From: a halophilic archaeon SHRA6
GTDB lineage: Archaea; Halobacteriota; Halobacteria; Halobacteriales; Haloferacaceae
NCBI GenBank assembly: GCA_005239175.1
Contig: SOPS01000001.1
Coordinates: forward strand, 124,001-188,000
Direction of reading: 5' to 3'
Length of the DNA stretch: 64,000 nt
Positions 32,932 through 41,490 of this stretch are shown one piece after another. A program made the translations under genes and the position numbers. A model generated the notes under the pieces. That model saw only the letters and a list, made by a program, of their open reading frames with translations, searched no databases and was not told the DNA's origin. Position 1 is the first letter of the stretch, and every line of letters starts with the position of its first letter.

Positions 32932-34218
32932 ATGTCCAGTCGCTTCGGTACTCCAAAACGTATAAATACTCCCACGACCCAGGGGCAAGTACAATGTCTC
33001 ACAACGACACGGAGGATTTGTCGGGTACCCCGGCGGATCGAGTTCTTCCAGGGCACACTGGACAACACTGACGGGATTGAGTCAGTACGAATTTTCGACA
33101 CGACGCTACGTGACGGCGAGCAGTCGCCACGCACATCCTTTGATTACAACGACAAGCGCGAGATCGCCGAGATCCTCGATGATATGGGCACCCATGTCAT
33201 CGAATCCGGATTCCCGGTGAACTCCGAGCCTGAGTTTGAGGCGGTCGCGGACATCGCCGCGGCGACCAACACGACGACGTGTGGGTTGGCTCGGGTCGTC
33301 GACAAGGACATCGAGGCCGCGATCGACGCCGGCGTGGACATGATCCACGTCTTCGTGAGCACGAGCGATGTCCAACTCGAAGACTCCATGCACGCCAGTC
33401 GTTCAGAAGCCAAACAGCGCGCCGTCGAGAGCGTCGAACGCGTCCGCGAAGCGGGCGTCGAGGTGATGTTCTCGCCGATGGACGCAACCCGAACCGACGA
33501 GAGATACCTCGTCGAGGTCATCGAGGCTGTCGACGAAGCCGGCGTGGATTGGATCAACATCCCGGACACGTGTGGGGTTGCGACCCCAACGCGATTCGCA
33601 AAACTGGTTCGGACGGTCCGCGAACACACCGACGCGCGGGTCGACGTTCACGCACACGACGACTTCGGGCTGGCCTCGGCAAATGCCATCTCTGGCTTCG
33701 AGGCCGGCGCTCACCAGGCACAGGTGTCGGTCAACGGGATCGGCGAACGCGCCGGCAACGCGGCCTACGAAGAGGTCGTGATGTCCGCCGAGAGCCTGTA
33801 CAACGTCGACACTGGGATCGACACGACCCGGATCACCGAGCTGAGCCGGATGATCGAGGAGAAATCCGACATCCCGATTCCGGCAAACAAGCCGATCGTT
33901 GGGCGGAACGCCTTTGCCCACGAAAGCGGGATCCACGCTGCTGGCGTGATCGAAAACAGCGACACCTTCGAACCCGGCGTCATGACCCCGGAGATGGTTG
34001 GGGCCCGCCGCGAGTTCGTGATGGGCAAACACACCGGCACTCATTCGGTCAGGAAGCGACTTGTTGAGGCCGGCTACGACCCAACTGAGTCGGAAGTCCG
34101 GGAGGTAACAAAGCGCGTCAAAGAGTACGGCGCGGAGAAACGCCGTGTGACTGACCAGGTCATTACGCGCTTTGCCGAAGAGGTTGGGGTCCGATCGACG
34201 GAGGAGGTCAGAATCTGA
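32932..34218 (+). CDS. leuA: 2-isopropylmalate / citramalate synthase family enzyme
   Basis: The open frame encodes the whole catalytic domain: IFDTTLRDGEQSPRTSF (near 54, catalytic Arg-Asp), GFPVNSEPEFEAV, HVFVSTSDVQ, the metal-binding VHAHDDFGLASANA (near 241), NGIGERAGNA (near 270) and AHESGIHAAGVI. It condenses acetyl-CoA with a 2-oxo acid, starting leucine (or, as CimA, isoleucine) synthesis; its place before ilv and leu genes favours LeuA. The C-terminal allosteric domain of long LeuA proteins is missing. The true start is unclear: ATG 32932 gives a basic leader that crosses a strong TATA box, while the promoter-proximal ATG 32994 is in another frame. Confidence 0.85.
   Translation: MSSRFGTPKRINTPTTQGQVQCLTTTRRICRVPRRIEFFQGTLDNTDGIESVRIFDTTLRDGEQSPRTSFDYNDKREIAEILDDMGTHVIESGFPVNSEPEFEAVADIAAATNTTTCGLARVVDKDIEAAIDAGVDMIHVFVSTSDVQLEDSMHASRSEAKQRAVESVERVREAGVEVMFSPMDATRTDERYLVEVIEAVDEAGVDWINIPDTCGVATPTRFAKLVRTVREHTDARVDVHAHDDFGLASANAISGFEAGAHQAQVSVNGIGERAGNAAYEEVVMSAESLYNVDTGIDTTRITELSRMIEEKSDIPIPANKPIVGRNAFAHESGIHAAGVIENSDTFEPGVMTPEMVGARREFVMGKHTGTHSVRKRLVEAGYDPTESEVREVTKRVKEYGAEKRRVTDQVITRFAEEVGVRSTEEVRI
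32961..32968 (+). promoter_or_regulatory. TATA box inside the apparent leuA 5' coding frame
   Basis: TATAAATA is a strong haloarchaeal TATA element. Its centre is about 30 bases before an ATG at 32994, which opens a different reading frame from leuA (see the minicistron and leuA entries). Confidence 0.7.
32994..33071 (+). CDS. 25-codon open frame at the leuA promoter, out of frame with leuA
   Basis: The ATG at 32994 sits at the expected distance from TATAAATA (32961-32968) and opens a 25-codon acidic-looking frame (MSHNDTEDLSGTPADRV...) that stops at TGA 33069-33071 inside the leuA sequence. The acidic start is what one expects of the leuA N terminus itself. Either one base has been gained or lost (natural frameshift or sequencing error), or translation shifts +1, or this is a true regulatory minicistron. 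Confidence 0.4.
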   Translation: MSHNDTEDLSGTPADRVLPGHTGQH

Positions 34219-34330
34219 TGGCAGTTTCACGGTTTTTTGCTCGCGAAGAGCGACAGCCGCAGGATTCGCGATTACCGAGGGGCGTACCTGCGCAACGCGG
34301 CCGTCAGCGGCCACCGATAACGCGTAATCG

Positions 34331-34338
34331 TTATATAT
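34331..34338 (+). promoter_or_regulatory. TATA box of the ilvBNC-leuCDB operon
   Basis: TTATATAT is centred about 26 bases before ATG 34360, so transcription should begin at or next to that ATG. The first biosynthetic start (ilvB, 34642) is about 280 bases further on, giving an unusually long 5' region for a haloarchaeal mRNA. Confidence 0.75.
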
Positions 34339-34359
34339 CTCCGATCGGATACAACAGGT

Positions 34360-34440
34360 ATGGTCTTGCAGTCGATCGATCTCCGCGTCTCGGCGTCCGG
34401 AGCGATCGCTGTCGACGGGTCGATTATTGTAGGGGTCTAA
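34360..34440 (+). CDS. 26-residue Ile/Leu/Val-rich leader peptide of the ilv-leu operon
   Basis: From a leaderless ATG at 34360 to TAA at 34438-34440 the frame has 26 sense codons, of which 11 are branched-chain (five Val, four Ile and two Leu by count). They are densest at the end: residues 21-26 read SIIVGV before the stop. The stop lies in the loop of a perfect hairpin (34429-34447). The operon downstream makes exactly these amino acids. By analogy with bacterial ilv leader peptides, ribosome stalling on the Ile-Ile-Val codons could sense starvation. The peptide is unproven; the combination of promoter spacing, composition, hairpin and context is the evidence. Confidence 0.6.
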   Translation: MVLQSIDLRVSASGAIAVDGSIIVGV

Positions 34441-34447
34441 CCCCTAC
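34429..34447 (+). promoter_or_regulatory. leader hairpin holding the leader-peptide stop codon
   Basis: GTAGGGG (34429-34435) pairs perfectly with CCCCTAC (34441-34447) around a TCTAA loop containing the TAA stop. A ribosome stalled on codons 22-24 (34423-34431) would block it. AGGGGT (34431-34436) can instead pair with ACCCCT (34457-34462), so two exclusive structures are possible. Confidence 0.6.
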
Positions 34448-34492
34448 CACACCCACACCCCTCGTTTTGACGAACAACATTCGACCACCAGC

Positions 34493-34511
34493 CCCGTCCA
34501 CTTCGGACGGG
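34493..34511 (+). promoter_or_regulatory. second leader hairpin before ilvB
   Basis: CCCGTCC (34493-34499) and GGACGGG (34505-34511) form a 7-bp stem with an ACTTC loop. The surrounding leader (34441-34629) is strikingly rich in A and C and poor in G, hence otherwise little structured. No T-run follows the stem directly, so it is not an obvious intrinsic terminator. Confidence 0.5.
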
Positions 34512-34629
34512 CCGACCCACCCTCGACAGTAATGATAACCACGCTGACACGGACCCACGACGGAACCGAACGACCACGACCAACAGCCCGAACCGCTCGC
34601 GATTGGTTTGGCAACACCACACAACCCGC

Positions 34630-34634
34630 GAGGT
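34630..34634 (+). promoter_or_regulatory. Shine-Dalgarno sequence of ilvB
   Basis: GAGGT lies seven bases before the ATG at 34642. It marks ilvB as a leadered, internally initiated gene, in contrast to the leaderless peptide frame before it, and decides against an upstream TTG in the same frame. Confidence 0.6.
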
Positions 34635-34641
34635 CTCATCG

Positions 34642-36405
34642 ATGAGCGAACACGCACCACCGACAAAGGAGCAAGCACAGGAATCAGAAGCATCGACAAG
34701 CAAATCGACACCGACACAGGTGACAGATGGCTCGACTGCGATCGTCCGTGCGCTCGAAAACGCCGGAGTCGAACACGCCTTTGGCGTGCAAGGCGGCGCA
34801 ATCATGCCGGTGTACGACGCGCTCTGGGACTCCGAGATCACCCACATCACGATGGCCCACGAGCAGGGCGCCTCGCACGCGGCAGACGCCTACGGCGTCG
34901 TCTCGGGGACGCCAGGTGTGTGCCTGGCGACGTCGGGTCCGGGGGCGACGAACCTCGTGACCGGGATCGCCGACGCCTCGATGGACTCGGATGCGCTGAT
35001 CGCGCTGACCGGACAGGTTCCGAGCCACATGGTCGGTTCGGACGCGTTCCAGGAGACAGACACGACCGGTGTGACCGCGCCGATCACGAAACACAACTAC
35101 TTCGCGTCAGATTCGGACACCGTCGGCAAGACGGTCGGCGAAGCATTTGCACTGTCTGAGACGGGTCGTCCGGGGCCGACGCTGGTGGATCTTCCGAAGG
35201 ACGTTTCCTTCGGAGAGACCGATCGGGATCCCGGAGAGCCAACGCCGCCACCGGGGTCGACACCGACACCGGCGGCGGATTCGGCGGCGGTTGACGCTGC
35301 CGTTGCGGCGATCGAACGCGCCGAACGGCCGCTGTGTCTGTTCGGCGGCGGCGTGATCAAAGCTGAGGCGTGCGAAGAGGCGCGGGCATTTATTCACGAG
35401 TACGATATCCCCGCAGTCACGACGATGCCGGGAATCGGCACGGTGCCCGAAGACGACGAGCTCTGTCTGTCCTGGGCAGGCATGCACGGGACTGGCTACG
35501 CGAACATGGCGATCACTCACACAGACTGTCTGATCGCCGTCGGCACCCGTTTCGACGATCGGCTCACCGGTGGAATTGAGACATTCGCCCCGGAGGCGGA
35601 GGTCATCCACATCGACATCGATCCCGCGGAGATCTCGAAAAACATCCACGCGGACTATCCGCTCATTGGGGATGCCGCGACGGTGCTCGAACAGGTCCAC
35701 GACGCGATCGAGACGCCGCCAGCGACCCGCGAGTGGGTCGAGCAGTGTTCGGCGTGGAAAGACGACTACCCGATGGATTACCGGACGCCAGAAGACGAGC
35801 CACTGCGGCCGGAGTTCGTCGTTGAAGCGTTCGACGAGGCGACTGACGACGACACGATCGTCACCACCGGCGTCGGCCAACACCAGATGTGGGCGTCCCA
35901 GTACTGGACGTACAAAGAGCCGCGCACGTGGGTGTCCTCACACGGCCTCGGAACGATGGGGTATGGACTGCCCGCAGCGATCGGCGCGCGCTTTGCCGCA
36001 GACGACAGCCAGGATGTCATCTGTTTCGACGGCGACGGATCGTTCCTCATGACGATGCAGGAGTTGTCTGTCGCGGTCAGAGAGAACCTCGACATCACGG
36101 TGGCAATTCTCAACAACGAGTACATCGGGATGGTCAGACAGTGGCAAGACGCCTTCTTTGAGGGACGACACATGGCCTCGGAGTACAACTGGATGCCCGA
36201 GTTCGACAAAATGGCCGAGGCGTTTGGCGCAAAAGGCTGGCGGGTCGACGACTACGACGAAGTTGCCGATGCGATCGAGGGGGCGCTCGAATACGACGGC
36301 CCTTCGGTGATCGACTTCCACATCGATCCACGGGCGAACGTCTACCCGATGGTTCCAAGCGGCGGAGCGAACGGCAAGTTTGCGCTGACGGAGGACCAAC
36401 TATGA
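34642..36405 (+). CDS. ilvB: acetolactate synthase large subunit
   Basis: The 587-residue ThDP enzyme follows an acidic leader with TDGSTAIVRALENAGVEHAFG. The catalytic Glu lies in MAHEQGASHAADAYG (near 75), the FAD-domain arginine region near GTRFDDRLTGG and the ThDP motif in ICFDGDGSFLMTMQELSVA (GDGx..NN-type, near 460) through AILNNEYIGMVRQWQ. It makes acetolactate or acetohydroxybutyrate in Val, Leu and Ile synthesis. It overlaps ilvN by four bases. The long leader before it contains the putative attenuator. Confidence 0.95.
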   Translation: MSEHAPPTKEQAQESEASTSKSTPTQVTDGSTAIVRALENAGVEHAFGVQGGAIMPVYDALWDSEITHITMAHEQGASHAADAYGVVSGTPGVCLATSGPGATNLVTGIADASMDSDALIALTGQVPSHMVGSDAFQETDTTGVTAPITKHNYFASDSDTVGKTVGEAFALSETGRPGPTLVDLPKDVSFGETDRDPGEPTPPPGSTPTPAADSAAVDAAVAAIERAERPLCLFGGGVIKAEACEEARAFIHEYDIPAVTTMPGIGTVPEDDELCLSWAGMHGTGYANMAITHTDCLIAVGTRFDDRLTGGIETFAPEAEVIHIDIDPAEISKNIHADYPLIGDAATVLEQVHDAIETPPATREWVEQCSAWKDDYPMDYRTPEDEPLRPEFVVEAFDEATDDDTIVTTGVGQHQMWASQYWTYKEPRTWVSSHGLGTMGYGLPAAIGARFAADDSQDVICFDGDGSFLMTMQELSVAVRENLDITVAILNNEYIGMVRQWQDAFFEGRHMASEYNWMPEFDKMAEAFGAKGWRVDDYDEVADAIEGALEYDGPSVIDFHIDPRANVYPMVPSGGANGKFALTEDQL

Positions 36406-37106
36406 GCGGAGAGGATCACGACAACAGCACACCCCCAAAACACGGATTGGCCGGCCGCCCACCAGAAGAGCGGCCGCATCCAGAAGGCAGACGGACCAGT
36501 CAGGGGATTCGGATCGATCCAGAGGCAGAAGCCGAACCGAGAGTTAGACAGGCCGTCGTCTCGGCGCTCGTGGAGAACGAACCGGGGGTGCTTTCGCGCG
36601 TCTCCGGGCTGTTCTCGCGCCGGCAGTTCAACATCGAGAGCCTGACTGTCGGTCCAACCACGGTCGAAGGAAACGCGCGAATCACCCTTGTGGTTGAGGA
36701 GACCGAACCGGGAATCGAACAGGTCAAAAAACAGCTCGCAAAGCTCAAGCCGGTGATGTCGGTCGGCGAGTTGGACGACGACGCAGTTCGCGCGGAACTC
36801 GTACTCATGAAGGTCCACGGTGACGAGCCCGACAAGGTCCATGCGATCACGCAGATGTACGACGGACAGACACTCGATGCAGGACCACGGACCATCACCG
36901 TCCAGGTCACCGGCAATCAGAGCAAGATCGACGACGCGATCGACGCGTTCAGGCAGTTTGGAATCATTGAGATCGCCCGAACTGGCCAAACAGCGCTAGC
37001 GCGCGGGGCAACCCCGACGACACCGGGTGAAGAGCCCGCGCCGGAGGGAACGATCGCCGACGAACCACAAAAGCCCCAAACACCCGCACAGCATTCGGAC
37101 GATTAA
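36402..37106 (+). CDS. ilvN: acetolactate synthase regulatory subunit
   Basis: The 234-residue protein has the N-terminal ACT domain ([32 protein letters not shown], from about 48) that binds valine for feedback inhibition, and the C-terminal small-subunit domain ([13 protein letters not shown], near 130). It carries acidic and proline-rich extensions at both ends (residues 1-40 and 205-234) beyond the usual 160-residue core. It is coupled to ilvB by an ATGA overlap and should form the holoenzyme with it. Confidence 0.93.
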
Positions 37107-37135
37107 AACCACCACACAAATACGATACACACACA

Positions 37136-38179
37136 ATGGCAAACGAACTTAACGCGACAATCTACTACGAAGACGATGCAGACCCGAACTATCTGAGCAA
37201 CGAAACGGTCGCTGTCCTTGGCTACGGGAGCCAGGGCCATGCACACGCGCAGAATCTCAACGACAGCGGCGTAGACGTAATTGTCGGCCTGCGGGAGGAC
37301 TCTTCCTCGTGGGAGGCCGCAGAAGCCGACGGGTTGACCGTCGCAACGCCCGATGAGGCCGCAGCAGCCGCGGACGTTATCTCAATTCTCGTCCCAGACA
37401 CCGTCCAGCCGGCGGTGTACGAGGCAATCTCCGACGGCATTGAGGCTGGAAACACCCTCCAGTTTGCACACGGCTTCAACATTCACTACAACCAGATCCA
37501 GCCGCCCGAGGACGTGGACGTGACGATGATCGCGCCAAAGTCGCCGGGACACCTCGTTCGGCGGAACTACGAAAACGGCGAGGGAACGCCGGGGCTTTTG
37601 GCCGTCTATCAGGACGTAACCGGTGACGCAAAACAGCGAGCGCTCGCGTACGCGCAGGCGATCGGCTGTGCCCGTGCGGGTGTCGTCGAGACGACGTTCC
37701 GCGAGGAGACCGAGACCGATCTGTTCGGCGAACAGGCTGTGTTGTGCGGCGGGATTGCCTCGCTCGTAAAGACCGGCTACGAGACGCTCGTCGATGCAGG
37801 GTACAGCCCGGAGATGGCGTACTTCGAGTGCCTCAACGAGATGAAGCTCATCGTCGATCTGATGTACGAGGGCGGCCTCGGCGCGATGTGGGATTCGGTC
37901 TCAGACACCGCCGAATTCGGCGGCCTCGTTCGCGGCGACGAGATCATCGACGATCACGCCAGAGAGAACATGGAGTCGGTGCTTGAGCGCGTCCAAAACG
38001 GCGAGTTCGCCCGCGAGTGGATCGTCGAGAACCAGGCTGGGCGACCGAGCTACACCCAGCTGCGGGAAGCTGAGGGCAGCCATGAGATCGAACAGGTCGG
38101 CGAAGAGCTCCGATCGCTGTTCGCGTGGGCCCAAGAGGACGAAGAAACCGACGAGGAGTCGCCCCGCGTGCAGGCATGA
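37136..38179 (+). CDS. ilvC: ketol-acid reductoisomerase
   Basis: The 347-residue class I enzyme has the NADPH motif [17 protein letters not shown] (near 23), [20 protein letters not shown] (near 130) and the metal-binding [16 protein letters not shown] and [18 protein letters not shown] (near 190 and 228). It converts acetolactate to dihydroxyisovalerate. It starts 29 bases after ilvN and overlaps the next small gene by four bases. Confidence 0.95.
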
Positions 38180-38505
38180 GTGAGGAGAATCGAGAGGCGA
38201 TGGGAGAGATCTCCCACACGCATCCCTACACTGGCGAGACGTTCGGCGGTGTGTACCGTCGCGGGCCAGCGATCGCCGACGGCGGAGAGTCATCGCCAGT
38301 TCGGACGGGAGCGACTACCGACACGACACCGGAATCAACGACGGATGCGGAAGCGGAGACAGAGACGGATGCGGACACGGATGCGAATGCTGACACGGAC
38401 ACGGATGACGTCGCGCGAGTGCGCGACGTCGATCACGAATCGAGCGCGACCGCCAACGAGGTCTGGACGCGCGGCGGTGCGGTACCCGAGGTACCTGATA
38501 AATGA
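38176..38505 (+). CDS. small acidic protein between ilvC and leuC
   Basis: The 109-residue product starts [20 protein letters not shown] and continues [16 protein letters not shown], then a low-complexity Asp/Thr/Ala linker (residues 48-78, encoded by imperfect GACACGGATGCG-type repeats), and ends with [22 protein letters not shown]. It overlaps ilvC (ATGA 38176-38179) and leuC (ATGA 38502-38505), so it is translated with both. I do not recognise a family. Position suggests an accessory or regulatory role in the Leu branch, for example a chaperone or subunit linker for LeuCD, which is inference. Confidence 0.7.
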
Positions 38506-39914
38506 GTAACGGAACGCTGTACGACAAAGTATGGGATAGACACACGGTAACAACGCTACCGAACGGCCAAGATCAGCTGTTCATCGGGTTGCACCTCATC
38601 CACGAGGTAACGAGCCCGCAGGCGTTCGGGATGCTTCGAGAGCGCGACATCGACGTCGCGTTCCCCGATCGGACGTTCGCGACGACCGACCACATCGTCC
38701 CGACGACGCCGGAGGGTCGCGAACGACCCCTCAAAGACGACCAAGCTGAGAACATGCTGTCGGCGCTGGAGCAAAACACCGAGGAGGCCGGGATCACGTT
38801 CTACGGGCTCGACACCGGCAAGCAGGGAATCACCCACGTCGTCGCTCCAGAGCTTGGATTGAGCCAGCCGGGGATGACCGTCGTCTGTGGTGACAGCCAC
38901 ACGGCAACCCACGGCGCGTTCGGCTCGATCGGCATCGGAATCGGGACGACCCAGATACGGGACGTGCTCGCGACCGGCTGTATCGCCGCGGACAAACAGA
39001 AGGTCCGCCGGGTCGAGGTCACCGGCGAACTCGGCGACGGCGTCTACGCGAAGGACGTCATCCTGAAAATCATCCAGGATCTCGGCGTCGGCGGCGGCGT
39101 CGGCCACGTTTACGAGTACGGCGGCGAGGCGATCAAATCGCTCGACATGGAGGGTCGACTTGCCGTCTGTAACATGTCGATCGAAGGCGGCGCACGCGCT
39201 GGCTACATCAATCCCGACGAGACGACGTACGAGTACCTGAAGGGTCGAGAGTTCGCCCCTGAGGGCGACGCGTGGGACGAACACATCGAGTACTGGGAGT
39301 CGATCCGCTCGGACGAGGACGCCGAGTACGACGACGTTGTCGAGGTCGACGCCGACGGGATCGCCCCGATGGTTTCGTGGGGAATCAACCCCGGACAGGT
39401 CATCGAGGTCACGGACCCCGTTCCAACGCCTGAAGAGGTGCCACAACAGGATCGTGAGGCCGCCCAGAAGGCCTACGATCACATGGACGTCGAACCTGGC
39501 GAGTCGATGCAGGGGTACGACGTTGACGTGGCGTTCCTCGGAACGTGTACTAACGGTCGGGTCTCGGACTTCCGCGAGGCTGCAAAGGTGCTCGAAGGTC
39601 GCTCTGTAGACGACGACGTGTGGGCACTCGCCGTTCCTGGCTCCGAAACCGTGCGTGCAGAATGTGAAAAAGCGGGCATCGACGAGGTGTTCCGTGAGGC
39701 CGGCTTCGAGTGGCGACAGGCGGGCTGTTCGATGTGTCTCGCAATGAACGACGACAAACTCGGTGCGGGTGAGGTTTGTGCCTCCTCGTCGAACCGCAAC
39801 TTCATCGGTCGACAGGGCGATAAGGCCGGCAAGACCGTCCTCATGAGCCCGGCGATGGTCGCTGCGGCAGCCGTCGAAGGTGAGGTCGTCGACGTTCGGG
39901 AGGTGTTGAACTGA
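38502..39914 (+). CDS. leuC: 3-isopropylmalate dehydratase large subunit
   Basis: The 470-residue aconitase-family subunit has HLIHEVTSPQAF (near 29), VVCGDSHTATHGAFG (first 4Fe-4S Cys region, near 128) and the later cluster ligands FLGTCTNGRVSDF (near 346) and GCSMCLAMNDDKL (near 408). It isomerises isopropylmalate with LeuD. It is joined to leuD by a TGATG overlap at 39912-39916. Confidence 0.95.
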   Translation: MSNGTLYDKVWDRHTVTTLPNGQDQLFIGLHLIHEVTSPQAFGMLRERDIDVAFPDRTFATTDHIVPTTPEGRERPLKDDQAENMLSALEQNTEEAGITFYGLDTGKQGITHVVAPELGLSQPGMTVVCGDSHTATHGAFGSIGIGIGTTQIRDVLATGCIAADKQKVRRVEVTGELGDGVYAKDVILKIIQDLGVGGGVGHVYEYGGEAIKSLDMEGRLAVCNMSIEGGARAGYINPDETTYEYLKGREFAPEGDAWDEHIEYWESIRSDEDAEYDDVVEVDADGIAPMVSWGINPGQVIEVTDPVPTPEEVPQQDREAAQKAYDHMDVEPGESMQGYDVDVAFLGTCTNGRVSDFREAAKVLEGRSVDDDVWALAVPGSETVRAECEKAGIDEVFREAGFEWRQAGCSMCLAMNDDKLGAGEVCASSSNRNFIGRQGDKAGKTVLMSPAMVAAAAVEGEVVDVREVLN

Positions 39915-40516
39915 TGGCGGGCGTTCCACAGATTCGACGGATCGCTGGCACCGGCGTGCCGATCCGCGGCGATGACATCGACACCGACCAGATCCTTCCG
40001 GCACGGTTCATGAAGGAAGTCACCTTCGACAATATGGGCGAGTACGCCTTCTACGACGCCCGCCGCGACGAGAACGGCGAGCGCAACGATCACCCGCTGA
40101 ACACCTACACGGGTGCGAACATCGCGGTCGTAAACCGAAACTTCGGCTGTGGCTCCTCGCGTGAACACGCCCCACAGGGACTCATGCGCTGGGGTATGGA
40201 GGGAATCGTCGGTGAGTCCTTCGCAGAGATTTTCCGAGACAACTGCAAGTCTCTGGGCGTCCCAGCGATGACCGCTGACGCGGAGACGGTCGATCGCCTC
40301 CAGACGTTCATCGAGGAGAACCCCGAGGCGGGGATCGAACTCGACGTCCGTGAGAAGACGATCACCTTCGACGGCGAAGTCGTCGATGCGGAGATCGACC
40401 ACGCGATGCGCGAAGCCCTGCTTGAGGGGACGTGGGACACGACCGCAGTGATGCGATCGAACATGGATCGCGTCCGCGACGTGGCCAACAGCCTGCCGTA
40501 CGTTGAGGATCGATGA
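39914..40516 (+). CDS. leuD: 3-isopropylmalate dehydratase small subunit
   Basis: The 200-residue swivel-domain subunit has [14 protein letters not shown] (near 18), [19 protein letters not shown] (near 75) and [15 protein letters not shown]. These are the substrate-loop and Ser-Arg-His residues of LeuD. It is coupled to leuC and overlaps leuB by four bases. Confidence 0.95.
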
Positions 40517-41490
40517 CCGAGGAGATCGTCGTCATCCCCGGTGACGGGATCGGCACCGAAGTGATCCCGGAAGCCCAGCGTGTGCTGGAGACGGTCATCG
40601 ACGTCGAGTTCGTCGAAGCAGACGCCGGCGATGCCGTCAAGACTCGAACGGGCGAAGCGCTTCCGCAGGAAACCTACGATCTCGCTGCGAGCGCAGACGC
40701 CACGTTGTTCGGCGCAGCCGGCGAAACCGCCGCGGACGTCATCCTTCCGCTGCGCGAGGCGGTGGATTCGTTCGTCAACATCCGGCCGGCGAAGGCGTAT
40801 CCGGGCGTCGACGCGCTGCGTCCGGAGACCGATCTCGTCTTCCTCAGAGAGAACACGGAGGGCGTCTACTCGGGCCACGAGGATCGCCTCTCAGACGATC
40901 TGTCGACGCTAACCCGCGTCGTCACGACATCCGCGTCCGAGCGCCTCGCTGAATTCGCCTGCGAGTACGTCGGCGATCGCGATGTGAACGGCTTTACTGT
41001 CGCCCACAAGGCAAACGTGATGCGCGAGACCGACGGTCGGTTCCGCGACGCAGTGGTGGCAGTCGCAGAAGACAACGGTGTTGAGGTCGACGAGGTGTTG
41101 ATGGACGCGTTCGCAACTCGGGTCTGTCTCGACCCAACACAGTTCGACGTGATCGTCTGTCCGAACCTCGCGGGCGACGTGCTGTCAGACCTCGCCGCTG
41201 GGCTCGTTGGTGGGCTCGGATTGTTGCCGTCGGCGAATGTCGGCCCCGATCGGGCGCTCTTCGAGCCAGTCCACGGCACTGCGCCCGATATCGCTGGACA
41301 GGGTGTTGCCAACCCTGCAGCGACGATCCTCTCTGCGGCAATGCTGCTCGAGTACCTCGGATACGATGCAGAAAGCAACGCGGTGCACGAAGCTGTTGAG
41401 GGCGTCCTCTCGGACGGCCCGCGGACCGCGGATCTCGGCGGCGACGCCTCGACGACCGAGGTCACGGACGCAATTATCGATCGGCTGTAA
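40513..41490 (+). CDS. leuB: 3-isopropylmalate dehydrogenase
   Basis: The 325-residue beta-decarboxylating dehydrogenase has [16 protein letters not shown] at its start, [13 protein letters not shown] (near 115), the catalytic Lys in [13 protein letters not shown] (near 163) and the NAD-site [19 protein letters not shown] (near 256). Isocitrate and homoisocitrate dehydrogenases are related, but its location after leuCD fixes the function. It closes the operon; the next gene is 120 bases away with its own TATA element. Confidence 0.93.

Follow-up and report, generated by a model that had tools for sequence, protein, structure and literature searches.

The window, a 64,000-nucleotide stretch of haloarchaeal DNA, carries on its forward strand the genes leuA (frame to 34218), ilvB (34642-36405), ilvN, ilvC, leuC, leuD and leuB, with a short leader between leuA and ilvB. 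The presumed target of regulation is ilvB, which encodes the large subunit of acetolactate synthase (TIGR00118, 685 bits against a cut-off of 538) and is 98% identical to ilvB of Halalkalirubrum salinum; the genes from ilvN to leuB (36402-41490), assigned by NCBIfam matches, form the remainder of the presumed operon. The leader ORF MVLQSIDLRVSASGAIAVDGSIIVGV spans 26 codons (34360-34440, + strand, stop TAA at 34438-34440) and ends in ATT-ATT-GTA-GGG-GTC-TAA, 201 nt before ilvB. Its putative control codons, ATT ATT GTA (Ile-Ile-Val), lie at 34423-34431, GTA being the rarest Val codon. Given the TATA box TTATATAT at 34331-34338, 29 nt upstream of the leader ATG at 34360, the transcript is predicted to start at or adjoining this ATG, i.e. 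to be leaderless. As the transcription start site (TSS) map of Haloferax (Hfx.) volcanii gives 72% of mapped protein-coding transcripts as leaderless (PMC4983044), the leader ORF would be expected to come first on the ilvB transcript. Against the Rfam covariance models, the leader had no match that reached the gathering score, and the interval 34300-34700 had none with E<=1, so nothing places the leader in the T-box, ppGpp riboswitch, ilvB-OMG or any other Rfam family. A second small ORF follows (34532-34645, + strand), the TGA of which overlaps the ilvB ATG (ATGA); counterparts occur in Halorubrum loci, e.g. MHHRTPPRQ.

Conservation of the leader upstream of ilvB

The window was compared with 79 further ilvB loci, of which L071 was left out of the assessment (its sequence begins inside the gene). 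All 79 assessable loci, window included, carry GTAGGGG in frame, followed by CCCC. The 76 fetched loci with ATY-GTA-GGG-G upstream of ilvB were aligned together with the window, giving 77 loci; beyond these, the leader ends in CGC-GTA-GGG-G (RVG) at L065 and contains ATT-GTA-GGG-G at L081. A counterpart of Ile-Val-Gly is found in 77/77 aligned loci. Ile thus precedes GTA throughout and Ile-Val codons end every leader, while the residues farther upstream vary and none is invariant. The stop codon follows GGGG after 2 or 5 nt (TAG in 42, TAA in 25 and TGA in 10 loci), and CCCC starts 0-3 nt past the stop in all 77.

The promoter and the reading frame are kept together. In 67 of 77 loci, an AT-rich hexamer lies 22-36 nt upstream of the in-frame ATG, compared with 10% at random positions. 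When no frame is assumed, the best TATA-supported ATG shares the frame of GTA at 67 of 68 loci. Leader length takes 20 different values, the GTA frame being kept across them. At the control position, Val is encoded by GTA in 77/77 loci, compared with 0.6% of the 3589 Val codons in ilvB homologues; in the genes of the window, GTA makes up 6% of Val codons. Similarly, ATT occupies the Ile position in 57/77 leaders but accounts for only 8% in ilvB homologues. This codon bias implies a constraint on the nucleotide sequence beyond the peptide, as expected if GTA doubled as a slow control codon and as the base of the stem described below. Close relatives are grouped among these loci and their counts are not independent events, so the spread across families and genera in the covariance-model survey is the better measure of conservation.

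Hairpin and downstream RNA

The first-pass annotation, the coordinates of which were all correct (GTAGGGG 34429-34435, TAA 34438-34440, CCCCTAC 34441-34447, ACCCCT 34457-34462 and a further stem 34493-34499/34505-34511), had described a hairpin with the leader stop codon as its loop. The hairpin is real, but its loop is 34437-34439, so that the last A of the stop is paired. In the window, GUAGGGGU-CUA-ACCCCUAC (34429-34447, + strand) forms an 8-bp stem (34429-34436/34440-34447) with a folding energy of -12.6 kcal/mol, equalled by one of 200 shuffles, and is supported by fold, conservation and compensatory variants. The surrounding 101-nt region folds better than shuffled controls (-29.2 versus -19.5 +/- 2.8; z -3.5; 0/200 as good).

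Immediately downstream lies a pyrimidine-rich, G-poor and unstructured tract with TTTT at its end (34448-34468, + strand), delimited by composition and folding energy over the 77 loci. In the first 20 nt past the stop, G amounts to 2-4% and C+T to about 80%, after which the composition is normal; the G-poverty noted at first sight is thus a general property of these leaders. The mean folding energy of 30-nt segments is -12.4 kcal/mol for those starting at GTA and -0.2 to -0.6 for those starting 6-18 nt later. The RNA is therefore a clean hairpin followed by unstructured RNA of about 80% pyrimidine in the 77 loci. The absence of a clear T-run was likewise borne out, as a run of T4 or longer occurs within 60 nt in only 22/77 loci, and no consensus terminator was found on the + strand of the window leader.

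According to the first-pass annotation, the AGGGG of the 5' arm can also pair with the downstream ACCCC, which would make two mutually exclusive structures, with a second stem following. This view is not supported: a partner of at least 5 bp is present in 83% of loci, compared with 89% when the C-rich tails are shuffled, and only some lineages have the second stem. The pairing of AGGGG with the next ACCCC was dropped, being expected of any C-rich tail, and no conserved antiterminator was found across the loci. The second stem, CCCGTCC/GGACGGG (34493-34511, + strand), is indeed present in the window and kept with an altered loop in the closest relative (L080), but it does not correspond to a fixed strong stem class-wide, the mean 30-nt energy in this region being about -5 to -6 kcal/mol versus -12.4 kcal/mol for the first hairpin. 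A mutually exclusive antiterminator is not needed for single-hairpin designs.

Compensatory changes, proposed earlier as a check on the stems, were at first nearly uninformative because the 5' arm is invariant. RNAalifold returned no pairs from the 77-sequence alignment, a result of the invariant 5' arm and of offsets of 0-3 nt in the position of the 3' arm from locus to locus. In its place, stems were counted locus by locus. The fourth G of GGGG is part of 102 stems, and its position is a G-C pair in 100 of them and a C-G pair in the other 2; stems of at least 6 bp are found in 72% of cases versus 39% with shuffled tails. Compensated stems occur upstream of ilvB in L337 (GTAGGGCC-CGCCTA-GGCCCTAC, 8 bp, with a G-C to C-G change) and upstream of valS in L148 (AGGGCC/GGCCCT). 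The near-invariance of the 5' arm keeps the covariation thin, though it is present. As a general leader signal, GGGG-N-TAG-CCCC was rejected: in 12 genomes it was no commoner than a reversed control, which assigns the hairpin to Val leaders and not to all leaders.

Distribution among haloarchaea

A covariance model of 50 positions (match threshold E<=0.01) found the element in 282 of 292 haloarchaeal genomes and 73 of 77 genera, mostly once per genome. All 10 genomes that lack a match possess an ilvB relative, and five of them (L333 to L337) hold diverged ilvB leaders: besides the compensated stem of L337, these comprise GTACGGGCC...GGCCCAC in L335 and L336, and GTAGGGG...CCCC with the stop beyond the hairpin in L333 and L334, so the stop-in-loop layout is not universal. 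Among the other model-negative genomes, the leader was not found in L338, L339, L340 and L342, and the match of L341 begins inside the gene. The genomes that have ilvB but in which no leader was found comprise G123, the f5 genome and the two of f11. Outside the class, about 160 genomes of the phylum gave no convincing match and eight marginal ones (best E 7e-4).

Leaders at aminoacyl-tRNA synthetase genes

In several genomes, a second covariance-model match lies 110-170 nt before valS, as identified from the sequence. Here, the hairpin with GTA is present in several families, with leaders ending in VFVGAP, VFVGAF, VRVGAS or VVGAH and carrying no Ile codon: GTA is preceded by Phe in 14, Arg in 4, Val in 4, Gly in 2 and Leu in 1 of the leaders, and by Ile in 0/25. 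The difference from ilvB is in line with the relevance of Val alone to valS, Ile and Val both being products of the IlvB pathway. Other families have a leader of 9-11 codons at valS, with GTA-GTA followed by an Arg codon and without the G4 hairpin. At the valS loci L145-L158, a conserved CGTTTCGACGGATG-like element was observed about 20-35 nt past the leader stop, 3' of the hairpin.

The pheS and trpS genes were examined because the published TSS map of Hfx. volcanii lists uORFs there, namely 23- and 26-aa uORFs on the trpS and pheS transcripts (PMC4983044, Table 2). Among 38 pheS loci, 26 have a Phe-rich leader with GFGFFF near the stop. These leaders show a stable fold around the stop without an unstructured tail, so a readout of the ilvB type is not claimed for pheS. 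In L175-L204 and L294-L301, the leaders start with MASEP/MAPE and end in GFGFFF; in several loci, the TGA lies within stems (GCCCGG-TGAC-CCGGGC), and GGYGGAC is conserved downstream. Trp-rich leaders (WRWR or WRWW) precede trpS type 2 at all 12 loci. In Hfx. mediterranei and Hfx. larsenii, the trpS leader is 23 aa long, with a mass of 2703 and 2728 Da, respectively, and matches the 23-aa uORF of 2743 Da listed for Hfx. volcanii (PMC4983044). WRWR/WRWW codons mark the trpS type 2 leaders of L205-L216, L397, L398 and L400; in the last three, they lie between the inverted-repeat arms GTCCACTTCCC ... GGGAAGTGGAC, and a second hairpin, e.g. CGGGCTTAACCCG, comes next. This arrangement looks like a classical alternating attenuator.

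A survey that used the TATA position only, with no composition filter, recovered short ORFs at pheS (18/30; F 13.6%), trpS type 2 (8/12; W 10.4%) and valS (28/58; V 19.0%). The controls gave 0/6 for leuS, 0/5 for metS, 1/6 for ileS, 2/25 for thr/ser/pro/gly/hisS, 1/18 for trpS type 1 and 0/30 for trpE. Leaders before leuS, metS, ileS, cysS, thr/ser/pro/gly/hisS and trpE were rejected as candidates with one possible exception in one of six genomes, an Ile leader at ileS of L236 (MRRRRTVPRPPAVGQSRRSVVASSPIIAGQ) with a TATA-like box upstream. In the genome of the window itself, the stretch with trpS, pheS and the start of valS contains no such leader.

A candidate frameshift at leuA

At leuA (region 32961-33071), a TATA box and a leaderless ORF, MSHNDTEDLSGTPADRVLPGHTGQH (32994-33071), precede the LeuA frame, which is +1 to this ORF. 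The same +1 relation to a conserved leaderless ORF is found in 72/75 related loci, and in 63 of these 72 the LeuA frame contains no ATG, GTG or TTG between the ORF ATG and FDTTLRDGEQ. The core CGAGTTCTTC[CG]AGGG is nearly invariant class-wide. From these frames, we regard leuA as a candidate for a conserved +1 frameshift, with the Leu codon CTT as its site. Ribosomal slippage and leucine control have already been raised for HVO_1510 (PMC8305020); the class-wide conservation of the core is new beyond that report.

Discussion

We propose that the ilvBNC-leuCDB operon is controlled by a leader-peptide attenuator, which would respond to charged Val-tRNA (and Ile-tRNA), a reading to which we assign a probability of about 0.65. 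Comparison among genomes supports the leader ORF, its frame, its promoter spacing, the control codons, the hairpin and the association with the gene. On these grounds, the sensing of Val/Ile appears well supported, and the output would be either early transcription termination or control of translation. The initial idea that the position of the ribosome on the leader ORF acts on the hairpin, and thereby on ilvB, is strongly supported by the class-wide conservation and by the leaders of valS, pheS and trpS.

We infer the following sequence of events: (i) transcription would start at the leader ATG, and a ribosome would translate the leaderless ORF behind RNA polymerase; (ii) with Val- and Ile-tRNA plentiful, the ribosome would clear Ile-Ile-Val, terminate at the stop in the loop and leave; (iii) with the ribosome gone, the GUAGGGG/CCCCUAC hairpin and the unstructured pyrimidine tract would cut downstream expression, most likely by premature transcription termination, perhaps aided by FttA/aCPSF1; (iv) with Val or Ile short, the ribosome would stall with AUU or the rare GUA in its A site and cover the 5' arm, so that no hairpin would form and the polymerase would read into ilvB. 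The geometry of the leader bears on the last step: the conserved stem begins with the three bases of the GTA codon, and a ribosome halted on this codon would be expected to mask the 5' arm. Low expression with plentiful and high expression with scarce Val/Ile-tRNA would be the simplest reading. Transcription and translation are coupled in Archaea. Haloarchaeal RNA polymerase co-purifies with translation factors (PMC8576121), and a hairpin motif caused 59% termination in vivo in one Hfx. volcanii reporter (PMC7237163). Several features run counter to the attenuator at ilvB. In 55/77 loci, the 60 nt examined contain no run of at least four T, although U-rich RNA is reportedly what FttA prefers (PMC11616081), and the window leader has no consensus terminator. 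The control codons at the end of the leader are only few, a conserved antiterminator was not found, the stop of L333 and L334 lies past the hairpin, and some genomes with ilvB gave no leader. Changes to the control codons of the Streptomyces coelicolor ilvB leader, as cited in PMC1262725, were without effect, so codon content alone is no proof of attenuation.

The G-poor tract can also be read as the active element. According to this explanation, which we regard as unlikely though worth serious consideration, the bare pyrimidine tract would load FttA in a Rho-like manner after ribosome release, resulting in factor-dependent polarity, and the hairpin would only expose the tract or shield the upstream RNA. 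Strict G-poverty, about 30 nt without structure past the hairpin and the missing T-run at many loci are in line with it. However, the tract is mostly C, in contrast to the U-rich RNA that FttA is reported to prefer (PMC11616081), and the upkeep of the hairpin through compensatory change would be left unexplained.

Control of translation, with the leader still sensing Val/Ile, is in our view a live rival, though a rather improbable one. In this scenario, the hairpin or ribosome release near the stop would govern whether ribosomes reinitiate at the second small ORF, coupled to ilvB by the ATGA overlap. The start of ilvB is ATGA/GTGA in 74/76 loci, a Shine-Dalgarno-like site is present in only 24/76, and an ATG ORF ends on the TGA of the ilvB start in 58/76 loci versus 43% for other TGAs of the same regions. 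This enrichment is modest, however, and ATGA overlaps also occur elsewhere in the operon. The distance from leader to ilvB ranges from 67 to 344 nt, and the hairpin showed no conserved complementarity to the start of ilvB.

The invariant Ile-Val-Gly adjoining the stop (77/77) could point to a TnaC-like arrest motif in the nascent peptide that senses the free amino acid, but unlike known arrest peptides the leader has no invariant residue farther upstream, GTA and GGG are invariant as nucleotide sequence, and Ile is dispensable in the valS leaders, which makes this explanation very unlikely. That the inverted repeat is a DNA site for a dimeric, e.g. Lrp-like, transcription factor with an incidental small ORF is barely credible: GTAGGGG-N-CCCCTAC is also a palindrome in DNA, yet the GGGG-CCCC spacer and the 3' half past CCCC vary, the frame with the TATA-positioned ATG is kept (67/68) with the stop 2 or 5 nt on, and unrelated sequences occupy the equivalent place before pheS and trpS.

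Returning to the attenuator and extending it to the haloarchaea as a class, we think it quite likely that leaderless, amino-acid-specific leader peptides control ilvB, valS, pheS and one trpS by ribosome stalling, that this would be the first such system described in Archaea, and that leuA may sense leucine via the +1 frameshift. In the simplest form, at ilvB and valS, the terminator-like hairpin has the control codon as its base, which would make an antiterminator unnecessary. A 2021 account describes promoter recruitment of RNA polymerase as the only known target of activation and repression in Archaea (PMC8448881). If our proposal is true, attenuation works with the archaeal (eukaryote-like) RNA polymerase, without Shine-Dalgarno initiation or bacterial terminators. 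It would explain how haloarchaea adjust the synthesis of branched-chain amino acids (BCAA) and some synthetase genes, and would make transcription-translation coupling and the action of FttA testable in vivo through one synonymous change (GTA to GTC).

The attenuators of the E. coli trp, leu, ilv and phe operons and of pheST rely on a leader peptide with codons for the product amino acid, pheST being the aminoacyl-tRNA synthetase case, and the leu leader uses a rare codon. They employ alternating terminator and antiterminator structures, U-runs and Shine-Dalgarno starts. The haloarchaeal ilvB leader resembles them in its cognate codons, its rare codon and the use of such leaders at synthetase genes, whereas the alternating structures, U-runs and Shine-Dalgarno starts were not found for it. 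E. coli TnaC requires free tryptophan as well as conserved residues farther upstream. Its control at or near the leader stop, with factor-dependent termination in the untranslated RNA beyond, resembles what may occur at the ilvB leader, but the ilvB leader has no invariant upstream residue.

Among the long-5'-UTR uORFs of Hfx. volcanii (PMC4983044, Table 2), the trpS and pheS entries match the Trp- and Phe-rich leaders; the uORF section of that paper gives lengths, pI and masses, with neither a remark on composition nor an ilvB entry. The search, which covered the open-access literature, yielded bacterial ilvB leaders (PMC1262725, PMC10272879) and no archaeal leader-peptide attenuation. The ilvB-II, ilvB-OMG and ilvB RNA motifs likewise have a BCAA-rich uORF upstream of ilvB with attenuation proposed or tested, but are confined to bacterial lineages (PMC10272879), and the window leader has no Rfam match. 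Similar in layout are the leader candidates of Corynebacterium, Mycobacterium and Streptomyces (PMC1262725), in which a short ORF before ilvB also has Ile, Val or Leu codons overlapping a terminator-like hairpin. Those leaders are bacterial and have poly-U terminators, whereas the haloarchaeal leader is archaeal and predicted to be leaderless, has a near-invariant GUAGGGG/CCCC hairpin around its stop codon, and carries a pyrimidine tract in place of the U-run.
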